A stretch of 54,068 nucleotides of DNA from IMG/VR virus record IMGVR_UViG_3300044825_001528, positions 1-54,068 of that record, one strand, 5' to 3'. Below are positions 30,437 through 51,992 of this stretch, one piece after another (positions within the stretch are counted from its first letter, which is position 1; each line of letters begins with the position of its first letter). Below the pieces are notes generated by a model. It saw nothing but the letters and a program-made list of their open reading frames with translations. It was not told the DNA's origin and did no database searches. The DNA comes from a virus. A program made the translations under genes and the position numbers.

Positions 30437-31069
30437 ATGTCGCGATATCTACGAGAAAACTTGACTTTCGACCGCGCTAGTATGGTGGTCGAAAGCGTCA
30501 AGGAAGGAGAAATGAAGGCTCTATACATGAAGGGCATCTTCATTCAGGGTGGGGTAAAGAACGCCAATGAGCGTGTTTATCCCGTTTCCGAGATTGAGCG
30601 TGCTGTAGAAGATCTCAATACTCAAATCAGAGAAGGTCATAGTATTCTGGGCGAAGTAGATCATCCAGACGATCTTAAAATCAACTTGGATCGTGTCAGT
30701 CACATGATTAACAACATGTGGATGGATGGTCCAAATGGTTATGGAAAACTGAAAATATTACCGACTCCAATGGGCCAACTGGTATCTACTATGTTGGAAA
30801 GTGGAGTCAAACTAGGTGTGAGTAGTCGCGGAAGCGGTAACGTAGACGATACTACTGGCAAAGTAAGTGACTTTGAAATCGTCACAGTGGACATTGTAGC
30901 TCAACCAAGTGCCCCAAACGCTTATCCAAAAGCAATATACGAAGGACTAATGAACATGCGTCATGGTCATCGTGTATTGGATAATCTAAAAGGTGCTGGT
31001 TCAGATGCAAAGGTCCAAAAATTCTTGAAAGAAGAAGTAATTCGTCTTATCAAGGATTTGAAAATCTAA
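30437..31069 (+). CDS. gp21: Prohead core protease gp21
   Basis: 210-residue serine protease (T4 gp21 is 212 residues). It digests the scaffold core and trims gp23 and internal proteins during head maturation, cutting after [L/I]-x-E. The predicted catalytic His lies in ILGEVDHPDDL (about residue 75) and the catalytic Ser in KLGVSSRGSGNV (about residue 131). FEIVTVDIVAQPSAPNAYP is a further signature. The N-terminus MSRYLRENLTFDRASMVVES is the activation peptide expected for a self-processed protease. It lies between gp67-like and gp22, the order of T4. Confidence 0.93.
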   Translation: MSRYLRENLTFDRASMVVESVKEGEMKALYMKGIFIQGGVKNANERVYPVSEIERAVEDLNTQIREGHSILGEVDHPDDLKINLDRVSHMINNMWMDGPNGYGKLKILPTPMGQLVSTMLESGVKLGVSSRGSGNVDDTTGKVSDFEIVTVDIVAQPSAPNAYPKAIYEGLMNMRHGHRVLDNLKGAGSDAKVQKFLKEEVIRLIKDLKI

Positions 31070-47918: not shown

Positions 47919-49700
47919 ATGAAACAGTTAAAAGAGTTTGAAAACTGGACTGATAGCATAATCAAATCAACTGTATTTGAGAAGAAAGACACACGCGACG
48001 AGCGAGCCATTGAGCGTCAGCGTGATATAGTTTATAAAGCAAAGCAGGCATTTCCTGAGTATCCAGAATCTCAAGCTATTGAATTGTTCCTAGCCGATAA
48101 GCTATCTGACATTGAGCAGCGTGATTTTGAGCAGAACAAAGTCATCAATTTGCAGCGTAGAGAGAATGATAAACTTAAAGGTAATCTACAGGATCTACAA
48201 TCAGAGATTCAGAATATTGAAGCGGGCGGTCAGGAAACTGATCGAGAAATAGCAAGACTCAAACAATTGAGCGGTAAGCTTCAAACTGATGTAGAACAGC
48301 GTAGAGTTGGTGGTCGCGAAGTAAATGAACTATTAGCACAAGTTGAACAACTTAAAAACAAGCCTGGGGTTACTCCAGAACAATATAAAGACATCAAAGA
48401 TAAAGTAGAGGATTTTTCTAAACAAAAAGTCAATCCAGAAGAATTCAAAAAGTTTGAGAATCAACTGAAGACGCTTGCTGCTAGCGAAGCAATAGATAAA
48501 GAACAAATATCCAATTTACAATCAGCGATAGATTCTGTAACCAGAAGACAGGAAAAAATAGGCGATATCAGTGATGTTGCTGGCAAACTTCGTGATTTGG
48601 AGTCTAAACAAAGTGAAATTGAGCAAGTAGCAACTGCCAATAAAGAATTGGTTGGTGATTTAAATCAACGACTAGAAACTCTCGGTGCTGCTGATCGTGC
48701 TGATATTGAGCGTGCATCAGAATTGCTGCGAGATTTACAGGGGACTAAACAAGAGCTTGATGCTAAACAACAAGAACTGTCAGACTTCGAACGCAATCTA
48801 CAGACTCGTGTGGATAAAGAAATTGAACAAGAAAAAGCTACAACCAAGAAAAGAATGCAGGATTATTTTCGTCGTGCTAAAAAACGCAGCGCACAAGCAG
48901 CCACTAAAATCAATGCTCTTGTTGGAAAAGATGCTGGTATAGAAAAAATTCGCGAATTAGGTAGAACTATTACTGATCTTCAAAACAAAGATTTTGAAGA
49001 CATGACAATTTATCCTTCGATAGACGATATATCGTTAGAATTGAGTGGATTGGAAGGATGGCAAGAACTGACAGAGAGAAGAAGAAAGAGAATAGAAGCC
49101 GAAATAAAAAAATTGAAAAGCACTGTTGATTTTCTTCTTAAGAGATTAGTACAGCCGGATCTTCCTAATATTCCTTCTCCTGATCTTACATCGGAATTAG
49201 AACTTTCTCCTGAGCAAAAAAAAGAAAAGGATTATCAAGAATATGTACAACAAGCTAAAGATATAATGAAAAAAAATAACCTTGAACTTGATCTTAAAGA
49301 GGATGCATCTCAGTATGTAAATATAGAACCTGAATATTCAAAGATTATTGAATATTTAAAAGATAAATGGCTCAAATCATCAGATGGTTATCGCGAGACT
49401 GCTTTACTAGCCAATAAATTTCTTGATTTATCTTATCTTGATAGAATTATATATTATTATCTAAAAAAATCCAAAATCGATATTACTTCTATTAATAATG
49501 CCGACTTAGAAAAAGAATTTACTGAAATTTATCTTCCTTTAATCATAAAAAAAACAAATCAAAAAGCAAATCAAAAAGCAAATCAAAAAAAAGATTATTT
49601 GAATCAACCAACTAATCCGATAGACAAAGGATTATCAGAACTGGAAGAATCATTGGACAGAATCATAGGTAAAGATGTAGCAACTTGGATAAAACGATGA
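47919..49700 (+). CDS. Long coiled-coil virion protein
   Basis: 593-residue protein, mainly coiled coil from about residue 60 to 320 (KLKGNLQDLQSEIQNIEAGG; REIARLKQLSGKLQTDVEQR; ELDAKQQELSDFERNLQ), then a mixed helical part, ending with the triple repeat NQKANQKANQKK near residue 545-556 and DRIIGKDVATWIKR. The start MKQLKEFENWTDSIIKS is a distant variant of the targeting-like N-termini nearby. Without an enzymatic motif the function stays open; it may be an internal head or core protein. AAGGAAGT precedes the ATG. The stop overlaps the ClpS-like start (ATGA). Confidence 0.65.
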   Translation: MKQLKEFENWTDSIIKSTVFEKKDTRDERAIERQRDIVYKAKQAFPEYPESQAIELFLADKLSDIEQRDFEQNKVINLQRRENDKLKGNLQDLQSEIQNIEAGGQETDREIARLKQLSGKLQTDVEQRRVGGREVNELLAQVEQLKNKPGVTPEQYKDIKDKVEDFSKQKVNPEEFKKFENQLKTLAASEAIDKEQISNLQSAIDSVTRRQEKIGDISDVAGKLRDLESKQSEIEQVATANKELVGDLNQRLETLGAADRADIERASELLRDLQGTKQELDAKQQELSDFERNLQTRVDKEIEQEKATTKKRMQDYFRRAKKRSAQAATKINALVGKDAGIEKIRELGRTITDLQNKDFEDMTIYPSIDDISLELSGLEGWQELTERRRKRIEAEIKKLKSTVDFLLKRLVQPDLPNIPSPDLTSELELSPEQKKEKDYQEYVQQAKDIMKKNNLELDLKEDASQYVNIEPEYSKIIEYLKDKWLKSSDGYRETALLANKFLDLSYLDRIIYYYLKKSKIDITSINNADLEKEFTEIYLPLIIKKTNQKANQKANQKKDYLNQPTNPIDKGLSELEESLDRIIGKDVATWIKR

Positions 49701-50095
49701 AGATCAAACATATCATAAGAGAAAACACTGTGCTTGATCGTAAGCCAACAGTGAAGCCAGAGGAAATAGAACTCAATGAACCAGGCGGGTTCAATATAGT
49801 AATCCTGAATGATAATGTGACTCCATATCAGGTGGTAGTAGAGGCTATTATGCATGCAGTAGGACTTTCTGAACACGAAGCATTCAGTAGAATGATGCAG
49901 GCACATCAAATAGGATGGGGAGTAATTGCAACCTATGCCAGCAGAGATATTGCTGAAACTGTAGCCAACAAACTAGAGCAGCATGCTCGTGCCAATACTA
50001 ACTGGGATCATTATAGACCAATGATACCTCCACGCGGTTACTACAGACCCTGGCCACTAACAGCAGAAGTTATGGAGGCTGGTGATGCGTCTTGA
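49697..50095 (+). CDS. clpS: ClpS-like N-degron adaptor with capsid-targeting-like N-terminus
   Basis: 132-residue protein. Residues about 32-100 match ClpS, the adaptor that delivers N-end-rule substrates to the ClpAP/ClpCP protease: FNIVILNDNVTPYQVVVEAI, then LSEHEAFSRMMQAHQIGWG and RDIAETVANKLEQHA. In E. coli ClpS the residues D35, D36 and H66 hold the substrate N-terminus and M40 shapes the pocket; by alignment these are D39, N40, H70 and Y44 here, so one acidic contact and the specificity residue are changed. The N-terminus MKIKHIIRENTV fits the targeting peptide with a cut after IRE. The ATG at 49697 overlaps the previous stop. The last 25 residues (NWDHYRPMIPPRGYYRPWP) are extra. It may redirect host proteolysis during infection. 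Confidence 0.85.
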   Translation: MKIKHIIRENTVLDRKPTVKPEEIELNEPGGFNIVILNDNVTPYQVVVEAIMHAVGLSEHEAFSRMMQAHQIGWGVIATYASRDIAETVANKLEQHARANTNWDHYRPMIPPRGYYRPWPLTAEVMEAGDAS

Positions 50096-51992
50096 TGAGT
50101 TTGTGAACAGAAGATTCAGCAATACTCTATTAGAAGCCAAAGGTCATCTAGATCATCCTGAGGATCTGGTCTTTATTGGCGGTCGTGATGGTATGTTGCG
50201 AGCTATTCAGGCTATACAGCAAACAGCACAAACACCCAAGAACATTACCATAAAGTGGGACGGTTATCCAGCACTGATATTTGGTCGTGGGCCTGATGGT
50301 AAGTTCACGATTATGGACAAGCATATGTTCAACAAACAGGACAGTGCTGTTCGCCAATTGCATAGTCCGGAAGAATGGATGAGATATGAAAGTGCTCGCG
50401 GAGACAAGCAACGCACTGGTCTAATGAACATAATCAACAATATTTGGACAGGATTAGAAGCAGCAAGCACCAAGCCTGGATATTATTGGGGAGATCTATT
50501 GTTCAGCAGTCCTCTACAGGAACAAAACGGACTCTATAGATTCAGAGCCAATCCAAATGGTATTACTTATACAGTTGATGTTGATAGTCCAATTGGGCGA
50601 TTATTATCAAACAAAGTAGCTGGAATAGCAGTGCATCAGTATCTAGATCCAAATGCTATGTCTACTGACGAGGCCAAATCATTGGATGGCACAGTAGGGA
50701 ATCTAAAAAATGCAGGCAATGTTGCTATAGTTCCCAGTGCCATGCCGCAAACTCCTAGAGTAGTTATACCACAGGCTATGTTTACGCGAGCACAAGAATT
50801 GGTCAATAGATATGCCGACGATATAGATAAGTTCTTCAACAATGCTCCACAGGCCAAAAGTGCCTTTACTGGATTATTCACTACCTATATCAATAACAAG
50901 ATAGTCAGTGGAGATCTCAAGAACTTGGTCGCAGACTTCTATCGTTGGGTAGATAGTAGACCAATGACCGAGCGTATGCGTGCTAAAATCAACGAGTATC
51001 TAAAGAATAATCGCAGTGCTATCGTTGCCATATTCACAGTATGGGCAGCAATCTACAACTTGAAAAACAGTGTGGTCAAACAGTTGGACAGAGCAAGCAG
51101 AACCAGTCCAGTCAAGGGGTATCTACAAAGTGGCACACAAAGTCAAGAAGGATTCGTAAGTCAGGGATTGAAGTTTGTCAACAGATTAGGATTTGCTCGT
51201 CAGAATCTTGCCGTCAAACAACAGCAGCCACTATCAGAAGCCATTGATAACAAGCAAGTATTGATCATCTATCCAGGAGGATTTCATCCATTTCATCTTG
51301 GACATGCCAGTGTGTTTGATCACTTGGCCAAAAAGTTTCCTGATGGTGAAGTATTCGTAGCAGCAACCGATACTAAAACAGAACGCCCATTTGGATTTGA
51401 TGACAAGAAGTTCTTGGCCAATCAGAGTGGCGTTCCGAATGACAGATTTGTGCAGGTCAAAAGTCCCTATCGTAGTGAAGAGATAACCAAAAACTATGAT
51501 CCAAATAATACGATACTAGTGTTTGCAGTCAGTGAAAAGGATCGTGACAGAATCGGATTCAAGCCAAAAGCAGATGGATCTCCAAGCTACTTTCAGCCAT
51601 ACAAGGATGATGTTAGTGCCCCAATGAAGCAACACGGATACATCTATGTGGTTCCAAAGATTGATTTTGAGATTGGTGGCAAAGTGATTGACAGCGCCAG
51701 CAAGATTAGACAGATGTATCAGAATGCTGATGATAGCAAACGCAAGCAAATCATAGCTGATCTGTATCCACTTGGTCGTGCTCCAAAACGCATCAAGAGC
51801 ATATTGGATTCGGTACTGGGCCATTCCACATCATCAGATGTCAAAGAAGCCGATAATCCAAACTATTTTGGTGCCAGCAGTATGAGTCCTATTCCAGGCA
51901 CTCCACAAAGTCTACAGCCACAACCAACCATCAAAAAGAAAGCTCGTGAACGCGCCGAACAGGCAGCACTGCAACGCTTTATGGGTCACTAA
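50085..51992 (+). CDS. Two-domain nucleotidyltransferase-like protein (KxDG plus HxGH)
   Basis: 635-residue protein. Residues about 20-150 start with LDHPEDLVFIGGRDG and contain ITIKWDGYPALIFGRGPDGK with K57-W-D-G60, which looks like motif I of the covalent nucleotidyltransferase (DNA/RNA ligase) fold. Residues about 390-570 are a second nucleotidyltransferase of the HxGH class: IIYPGGFHPFHLGHASVFDHL (H404-L-G-H407) and DSASKIRQMY, the counterpart of the ISSTxIR motif of NMN/cytidylyl-transferases. The start MRLDEFVNRRF resembles the cassette N-termini. GGAGG 7 bp before the ATG at 50085 decides the start over a GTG one codon earlier; the gene overlaps ClpS by 11 bp. Substrates are unknown; NAD metabolism or RNA/DNA end modification are possible. 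Confidence 0.72.
   Translation: MRLDEFVNRRFSNTLLEAKGHLDHPEDLVFIGGRDGMLRAIQAIQQTAQTPKNITIKWDGYPALIFGRGPDGKFTIMDKHMFNKQDSAVRQLHSPEEWMRYESARGDKQRTGLMNIINNIWTGLEAASTKPGYYWGDLLFSSPLQEQNGLYRFRANPNGITYTVDVDSPIGRLLSNKVAGIAVHQYLDPNAMSTDEAKSLDGTVGNLKNAGNVAIVPSAMPQTPRVVIPQAMFTRAQELVNRYADDIDKFFNNAPQAKSAFTGLFTTYINNKIVSGDLKNLVADFYRWVDSRPMTERMRAKINEYLKNNRSAIVAIFTVWAAIYNLKNSVVKQLDRASRTSPVKGYLQSGTQSQEGFVSQGLKFVNRLGFARQNLAVKQQQPLSEAIDNKQVLIIYPGGFHPFHLGHASVFDHLAKKFPDGEVFVAATDTKTERPFGFDDKKFLANQSGVPNDRFVQVKSPYRSEEITKNYDPNNTILVFAVSEKDRDRIGFKPKADGSPSYFQPYKDDVSAPMKQHGYIYVVPKIDFEIGGKVIDSASKIRQMYQNADDSKRKQIIADLYPLGRAPKRIKSILDSVLGHSTSSDVKEADNPNYFGASSMSPIPGTPQSLQPQPTIKKKARERAEQAALQRFMGH

Follow-up and report, generated by a model that had tools for sequence, protein, structure and literature searches.

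The gene described here raises the question of why a domain resembling a nucleic acid ligase should be joined, in a single viral polypeptide, to an HxGH nucleotidyltransferase (NTase). It is found in the window, the whole stretch of 54,068 nucleotides analysed from IMG/VR record IMGVR_UViG_3300044825_001528, as a 635-codon open frame at 50085-51992 (+) whose ATG start is located within the 3' end of an upstream ClpS-like gene. From the sequence, this ATG at 50085, overlapping the ClpS gene end, is the likely start codon, GTG 50082 being the mechanical alternative. The product of this bifunctional gene (635 residues) is composed of a leader, a ligase-like DUF6267 domain, an HxGH NTase and a tail; its full-length AlphaFold2 (AF2) model, with a mean predicted local distance difference test score (pLDDT) of 86.7, has two domains modelled with confidence, preceded by a disordered leader and followed by a tail of low confidence. 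An earlier note on this DNA had read K57-W-D-G60 as motif I of the ligase type, and H404-L-G-H407 with S537-A-S-K-I-R542 as the marks of a C-terminal HxGH NTase; the motifs do occupy these positions, the second within GGFHPFHLGH (398-407). The evidence obtained by computation consists of the predicted folds of both halves, their conserved motifs, the coupling of the two genes, the leaders and the lack of a recognised ligase in seven phages. The answer proposed, which motifs and models place at the balance point between likely and unlikely, is a predicted capsid-packaged, self-adenylating polynucleotide ligase coupled to a nicotinamide mononucleotide (NMN) adenylyltransferase (NMNAT) in one polypeptide.

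The first half, residues 21-378 (50145..51218; all features given in this text lie on the + strand), matches Pfam family PF19782 (DUF6267), labeled as being of 'unknown function', with an E-value of 1e-40 and 140.8 bits against a curated cut-off of 27, covering positions 3-375 of the 376-position profile. Relatives were collected from IMG/VR by several queries and from annotated phages, and were aligned in two sets, A1 and A3, of 29 and 43 sequences, which take in DUF6267 members as distant as about 22% identity. In both alignments K57, D59, G60 and P62 are invariant, K57 of motif I (50253..50264) being the candidate adenylated lysine. Motif I is followed by a motif Ia-like K79-x-x-F82-N83 (50319..50333), a motif III-like G136-D137-L-L-F140 (50490..50504), a candidate motif IIIa strand G180-I-A-V-H184 (50622..50636, model strand 179-187), motif IV E355-G-F-V358 (51147..51158), aligned by hhalign with E227 of T4 Rnl1 and E204 of T4 Rnl2, and a motif V-like K363-F-V-N-R367 (51171..51185). 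The other invariant positions are G67, F74, K79, F82, G136, D137, Y162, G171, H184, N270, K327, L334, E355, G356, V358, K363, R367, F370 and N374, to which an N-terminal HLxHxED is added; those of motifs III, IV and V are invariant in A3. Between motifs IIIa and IV a helical insertion spans residues ~218-340 (50736..51104; model helices 230-338).

At the level of the family the motif set can be written as KxDG (I), KxxFN (Ia), GD[LF] (III), EG[FY] (IV) and K...R (V). Short members of about 290 residues, such as that of S-SCSM1, retain it as SVKMDG, NKAVFNKK, QGDFLG, QEGFT and KLVDR, motifs I and III being 67 residues apart in S-SCSM1 and 63 in T4 Rnl2; QGDFIG is another form of motif III among the short members. 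The helical insertion is reduced in these members, the S-SCSM1 match running over profile positions 1-206 and then 312-376. The motif III acid is an aspartate in most members and a glutamate in a few, for example the short member L399, whose QAEFIG is close to the GEFAG of T4 Rnl2. Shuffling the N-domain 200,000 times produced the motifs K-x-D-G ... G[DE][LF] ... EG[FY]V...K in this order once, with a pattern drawn up after the sequence was seen.

The N-domain modelled alone reached a pLDDT of 92.5 and a predicted template modelling score of 0.89. When this model was compared to known structures using VIA-align, rows 1-46 were all covalent nucleotidyltransferase (ligase) chains, and the unrelated rows that follow have Z scores of 4.7 or less. 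The Naegleria RNA ligase ranks first (Z 7.7 over 185 residues, 3.9 A), and T4 Rnl2 (6.4), TbREL1 (6.3), Trl1 (6.0), T4 DNA ligase (5.8) and T4 Rnl1 (5.7) are among the others. What makes the predicted ligase-type fold persuasive is that 46 ligases and nothing else stand above the drop in Z, together with the motifs. DUF6267 profiles were also compared by hhalign to Rnl1, Rnl2, three DNA ligases and 29 control families. With the combined profile Rnl1 came first (29.1) and Rnl2 second (22.2), the 29 controls scoring 22.0 or less; in both alignments motif IV falls upon motif IV and the motif V lysine is in register, at weak scores (P 0.006 and 0.05). Alignments produced in global mode were discarded as meaningless. 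In the Pfam scan PF09511 (RNA_lig_T4_1) reached an E-value of 0.19 for the N-half, around motif I and below significance, and PF09414 was not listed.

Since the motifs are invariant and the predicted fold is closest to that of ligases, DUF6267 is placed among the covalent nucleotidyltransferases, as a divergent and previously unrecognised family of the ligase type. The absence of motifs III-V and a non-ligase fold, which would have left KWDG a chance match according to the earlier note, were looked for: motifs III, IV and V are conserved, IIIa has a candidate strand, and the predicted N-domain is ligase-like, so its reading of KxDG as motif I is supported. Judging from the motifs and the model, the DUF6267 lysine probably self-adenylates; that the substrate is a nucleic acid, and the reaction strand sealing, is a proposition for which the chances appear equal on either side. 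The nearest described families are those of T4 Rnl2 and the Naegleria RNA ligase (Rnl2, Rnl5), which resemble DUF6267 in predicted fold, in motif order and in the distances from the N-terminus to motif I and from motif I to motif III. DUF6267 differs from them by its mostly-Asp motif III, its KxxxR motif V and the helical insertion before motif IV, and it has neither an additional ligase domain nor a significant sequence match to them. T4 RNA ligase 1 (gp63) shares an alignable motif IV (EGYV) and motif V lysine, but has N- and C-terminal parts of its own and a weaker fold match (Z 5.7).

The C-terminal half was likewise read correctly as an HxGH enzyme, on the strength of its signatures and of an NMNAT/PPAT-type predicted fold. 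The domain covers residues 389-581 (51249..51827); the model of this domain aligns with NadD and PPAT at Z scores up to 10.7 (150 residues, 3.4 A), and TIGR00125 matches with an E-value of 2e-4. CTP_transf_like matches residues 395-474 with E-values of 0.001-0.004, slightly below its cut-off, the S-PM2 homologue being above it. The HxGH signature, G398-GFHPFHLG-H407, is located at 51276..51305 and the second signature, S537-A-S-K-I-R542, which reads SASKVR in the S-PM2 fusion, at 51693..51710. The tail that follows (51828..51989) is modelled with low confidence and ends in a helix at 616-632. NMN as the substrate of this half is a possibility that falls a little short of even on signatures and modelled fold.

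The coupling of the two halves extends beyond the window. They are fused in the window protein, at loci L001-L006 and L165-L167 and in the cultured Synechococcus phage S-PM2. Elsewhere the two genes are adjacent in 81 of 83 cyano-clade loci and, in the Melnitz clade, adjacent or within the fetched stretch in 63 of 80 (in both clades the loci are not independent and their flanks are often cut). Six of the eight unfused freshwater-clade records encode the orthologous GGFHPFHAGH enzyme at another place. DUF6267 and one HxGH NTase are both present in each of the seven complete cultured phages that were examined (P-RSM6, Melnitz-3, P-HM1, S-PM2, S-SZBM1, S-SCSM1 and S-CREM2), the genes being unlinked in S-SCSM1 and S-CREM2. 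The S-PM2 protein (S-PM2d138, CFW42325.1, T4-like GC 71) has the same order, DUF6267 then HxGH NTase, in 591 residues, and both domains exceed the Pfam cut-offs; it differs by an NTase of the GRFNPPTTGH type (GGFHPFHLGH in the window) and by having no leader, and is annotated as a hypothetical protein. The NMN adenylyltransferase fusions of jumbo phages (PMC7824862) likewise join an HxGH NTase to a second domain in a NAD-linked enzyme, but that domain is a Nudix or kinase and not a ligase-type one. Two architectural variants were observed in passing. In the fused relative L001:616-2847 the NTase is separated from the C-terminal tail by about 110 additional residues. At L168:5956-9771 the same HxGH NTase opens a reading frame of at least 1272 residues in which GNAT-like, metallopeptidase-like and Nudix-box (GGAIKTGSTAADSAKEEMAEETGY) segments were recognised by eye downstream; from its sequence this long frame resembles a packaged polyprotein.

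A suggestion that the protein is brought in with the particle was also made in the earlier note. The predicted leader MRLDEFVNRRFSNTLLE (50085..50135) has low pLDDT and ends in a conserved prohead-protease-like site, LLE|AKG, of the capsid-targeting type. Among relatives the leader varies in length and sequence (MRAYQFLFE|AKG in L002), and the site [LIVMF]xE|[AD] is present on DUF6267 in 44 of 44 distinct freshwater-clade members, 50 of 52 Melnitz-clade members and none of 10 cyano-clade members. Comparable leaders are found on the T4 proteins IPII and IPIII (MKTYQEFIAE|A) and Alt (MELITELFDE|D); packaged T4 proteins and capsid targeting have been described (PMC3012670). These proteins share with the window protein a short N-terminal leader ending at a prohead-protease-type site and differ in function, Alt being an ADP-ribosyltransferase, the IPs being small and none being ligase-like; the leader of the window protein exceeds theirs in length, and the strict short leader regular expression fails on it. 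NMNAT or cytidylyltransferase proteins were found by mass spectrometry in the virions of S-SZBM1, S-CREM2 and S-SCSM1 (PMC9146016, PMC10665884, PMC9602691), and these start with MRFRQFIIE|A, MKNFSSFLTE|A and MKSFLQFLKE|A, respectively. The short expression retrieved the NTase, one small reading frame and one internal site from the whole S-SZBM1 genome, the NTase only from 39 kb of S-CREM2, and IPII, IPIII and Alt only from 13 kb of T4. The virion proteins (S-SZBM1_140, S-CREM2 gp154, S-SCSM1 ORF91) thus resemble the window protein in having an HxGH NTase, a T4-like leader and DUF6267 in the same genome, but their gene is separate from DUF6267 and the NTase alone is reported in the virion. Because of its T4-like leader with a protease-type site, the window protein is predicted to be packaged in the capsid, by a slight preponderance of the sequence and comparative evidence, and to be cleaved after Glu17. 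The suggestion therefore gains indirect support from the leader and from the NTase relatives in virions, the packaging of the window protein itself being a prediction.

Ligase function would have a particular significance in T4-like cyanophages. None of PF01068, PF01653, PF09414 and PF09511 has a match in the seven DUF6267-bearing complete phages; in T4, searched alongside, the DNA ligase and both RNA ligases were found and DUF6267 was not, and PF19782 was absent from 14 control genomes. A review of 2010 stated that gp30 homologues had not been found in cyanomyoviruses and that distant unrecognised ones were possible, and deemed the use of the host ligase more likely (PMC2984593). In the literature searched, no described ligase of cyanomyoviruses was found, no paper names DUF6267, and neither its assignment to the ligase superfamily nor a link to the missing ligase is made; both are new by this measure, the superfamily and the Pfam family being known already. 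DUF6267 is found in 469 phage records versus 474 for UvsX, with near-identical organism tallies; the few records with UvsX and no DUF6267 match may have lost it or hold a diverged form. The tallies are equal for Cyanophage, Prochlorococcus, Methylophilales and Pelagibacter, and differ for 'Marine' (8 vs 3) and Synechococcus (374 vs 369). In P-HM1, P-RSM6, S-PM2, S-SZBM1 and Melnitz the DUF6267 gene lies near replication genes (gp43, uvsX, gp41 or a DnaB-type helicase). DUF6267 may be the missing ligase because it is a core gene of T4-like marine cyanophages thought to have no sealing enzyme. The S-CREM2 protein gp190, annotated 'DNA ligase', is a 167-residue DUF6433 protein without KxDG, and the no-ligase pattern is therefore unbroken. 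DUF6433 (S-CREM2 OR473000 144929-145432, equivalent to L450:3930-4433; SSZBM1_85) was itself found in all 8 marine-type records tested, where it adjoins RNase H, and in neither T4 nor the freshwater clade; its interpretation as a split-off DNA-binding domain of a ligase was tested and found unsupported.

The activity suggested in the earlier note, NAD-related or nucleic acid end modification, agrees with all the results obtained. The mechanism favoured can be briefly summarized as follows. K57 of DUF6267 would attack a nucleotide cofactor (ATP being the likeliest) to give enzyme-AMP, and the AMP would be handed to a 5'-phosphate so that a break in nucleic acid, a nick or an RNA break, is sealed. 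The HxGH adenylyltransferase of the C-domain would most likely convert NMN and ATP to NAD+. The N-terminal leader would direct the protein into the prohead, where the T4-type protease would cut after Glu17, and the protein would enter the next host with the DNA, providing sealing and a supply of NAD ahead of any phage gene expression. In the marine T4-like relatives the ligase-type protein would be synthesised during infection, its core gene often lying next to replication genes, and DUF6267 would be the best candidate for the ligase that these phages appear to lack.

A number of results weigh against this mechanism. Every VIA-align Z score of the N-domain is below 8, which is modest if taken alone, and a Foldseek search with the same model gave no significant match (E >0.1). 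The DUF6267 profile search of the PDB gave no ligase match, the matches obtained being spurious ones of the helical part with viral fusion proteins, and Pfam, phmmer and hhalign give no significant sequence link between DUF6267 and ligases. In most members the motif III acid is Asp where ligases have Glu, motif V reads KxxxR and not KxK, and the DUF6267 core is not followed by an OB-fold or any other C-terminal ligase domain. For the second half, NMN specificity cannot be read from the sequence: the NMNAT, NadD and PPAT folds tie, and TIGR01527 and TIGR00482 are far below their cut-offs. As regards the particle, leaders are lacking on the DUF6267 proteins of marine cyanophages, that of S-SZBM1 included, and SSZBM1_141 and S-CREM2 gp87, which are DUF6267 proteins, are absent from the published virion lists where the S-SZBM1 NTase is listed. 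Finally, an ATP DNA ligase is encoded beside DUF6267 in two freshwater-clade genomes and an Rnl2-type ligase in two. As these genomes hold recognised ligases too, DUF6267 is not simply a replacement, and its role as a strict substitute for DNA ligase is weakened.

The leaders, which suggest delivery at entry, and the RNA ligases that lead the structural matches also fit a strong rival, in which the protein is a kit against host defence: the ligase half would reseal tRNA that defence nucleases have cleaved, its partner would restore NAD+, and both would be delivered together with the DNA. Counter-defence is an established role of one T4 internal protein (PMC3012670), and phage NAD synthesis and RNA ligases have been described in the same role (PMC7824862). 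However, a near-universal core gene located among replication genes in many cyanophages fits replication at least equally well, and an Rnl2-type ligase is encoded separately in two freshwater-clade genomes; this explanation, strong as a rival, is held only tentatively.

HxGH enzymes such as NadD, NadM and PPAT act on small molecules. A ligase-type core next to such an enzyme could adenylate a protein or a small molecule, or have become a binding protein, and thereby aid its partner in cofactor metabolism. The lack of a C-terminal ligase domain, the motif III Asp and the family-specific helical insertion are in line with this proposal, which is nevertheless unlikely, since the lysine, acid and glutamate positions expected in catalysis are kept across a large family.

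More improbable still, and attractive because it explains the coupling of the halves, is a NAD+-dependent ligase with built-in recycling, where DUF6267 would take AMP from NAD+ and free NMN, from which the attached NMNAT would rebuild NAD+ with ATP. It accounts for a ligase-type and NMNAT-type pair fused at least twice and otherwise co-occurring, and an invariant HLxHxED stretch lies just ahead of the nucleotidyltransferase core. Against it, the NAD-ligase adenylation family is not matched: PF01653 is not listed for the window protein in a Pfam scan to E 10 and matches 0 of 17 related records. In the VIA-align alignments the N-terminal region of DUF6267 begins where T4 Rnl2 begins (residue 4); this region therefore appears to belong to the ATP-ligase core and not to be an NMN-binding domain added to it, and no result favours NAD+ over ATP. 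Last, a chance KWDG in an N-domain unrelated to ligases, which the lack of a significant sequence match would allow, is very improbable and already largely refuted by the family-wide invariance of the motif residues, the structural list headed solely by ligases and the motif IV-V register of the profile alignments.

The genome in which the fusion is found is that of a virus of bacteria with T4-type head genes, namely a portal, an S77 prohead protease and gp23. The protease (Peptidase_S77, 30437..31069; PF03420, E 1.8e-27) could process the leader. The window also encodes a terminase whose identity to the terminases of the cultured phages that match best (for example Pseudomonas phages Paride and PA5oct) does not exceed 51%. 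Downstream neighbours of the fusion gene are a gp32-type single-stranded DNA-binding protein (52141..53214; phrog_1192, E 7.5e-57) and a RecA/UvsX-type recombinase (53531..54067; PF00154, E 8.5e-9) that is truncated by the window edge. Directly upstream, the overlapping gene at 49685-50095 encodes the ClpS-like phage adaptor (PF02617, E 6e-16), whose own start resembles a capsid-targeting leader. T4-like leaders are present at the gene starts 39093 (MRAREFISE|V), 39458 (MKITEILTE|A), 45339 (MRISEILNE|V, a chitinase/endolysin-like gene) and 49697 (MKIKHIIRE|N, the ClpS-like gene). The sequences of these four further leader-bearing genes suggest a set of packaged proteins.

In the cyanophage records examined, the annotation of DUF6267 goes no further than 'unknown' or 'hypothetical', though it is nearly as widespread as UvsX. 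In its widest form, the proposal is that DUF6267 is the core virus-encoded ligase of T4-like cyanophages and a new ligase family, paired with an NMNAT-type enzyme in a ligase-plus-NAD cycle that the window lineage would have turned into a single capsid-delivered enzyme, possibly one both using and remaking NAD+; as a whole this is doubtful. The recurrent link to DUF6267 offers a first testable idea on the role of particle-borne NMNATs, and the T4-type leaders explain how these could reach the head. If DUF6267 is a ligase, it would add to the known ligases a family with a new domain layout and solve the stated puzzle of a T4 replisome kept without the gp30 ligase.

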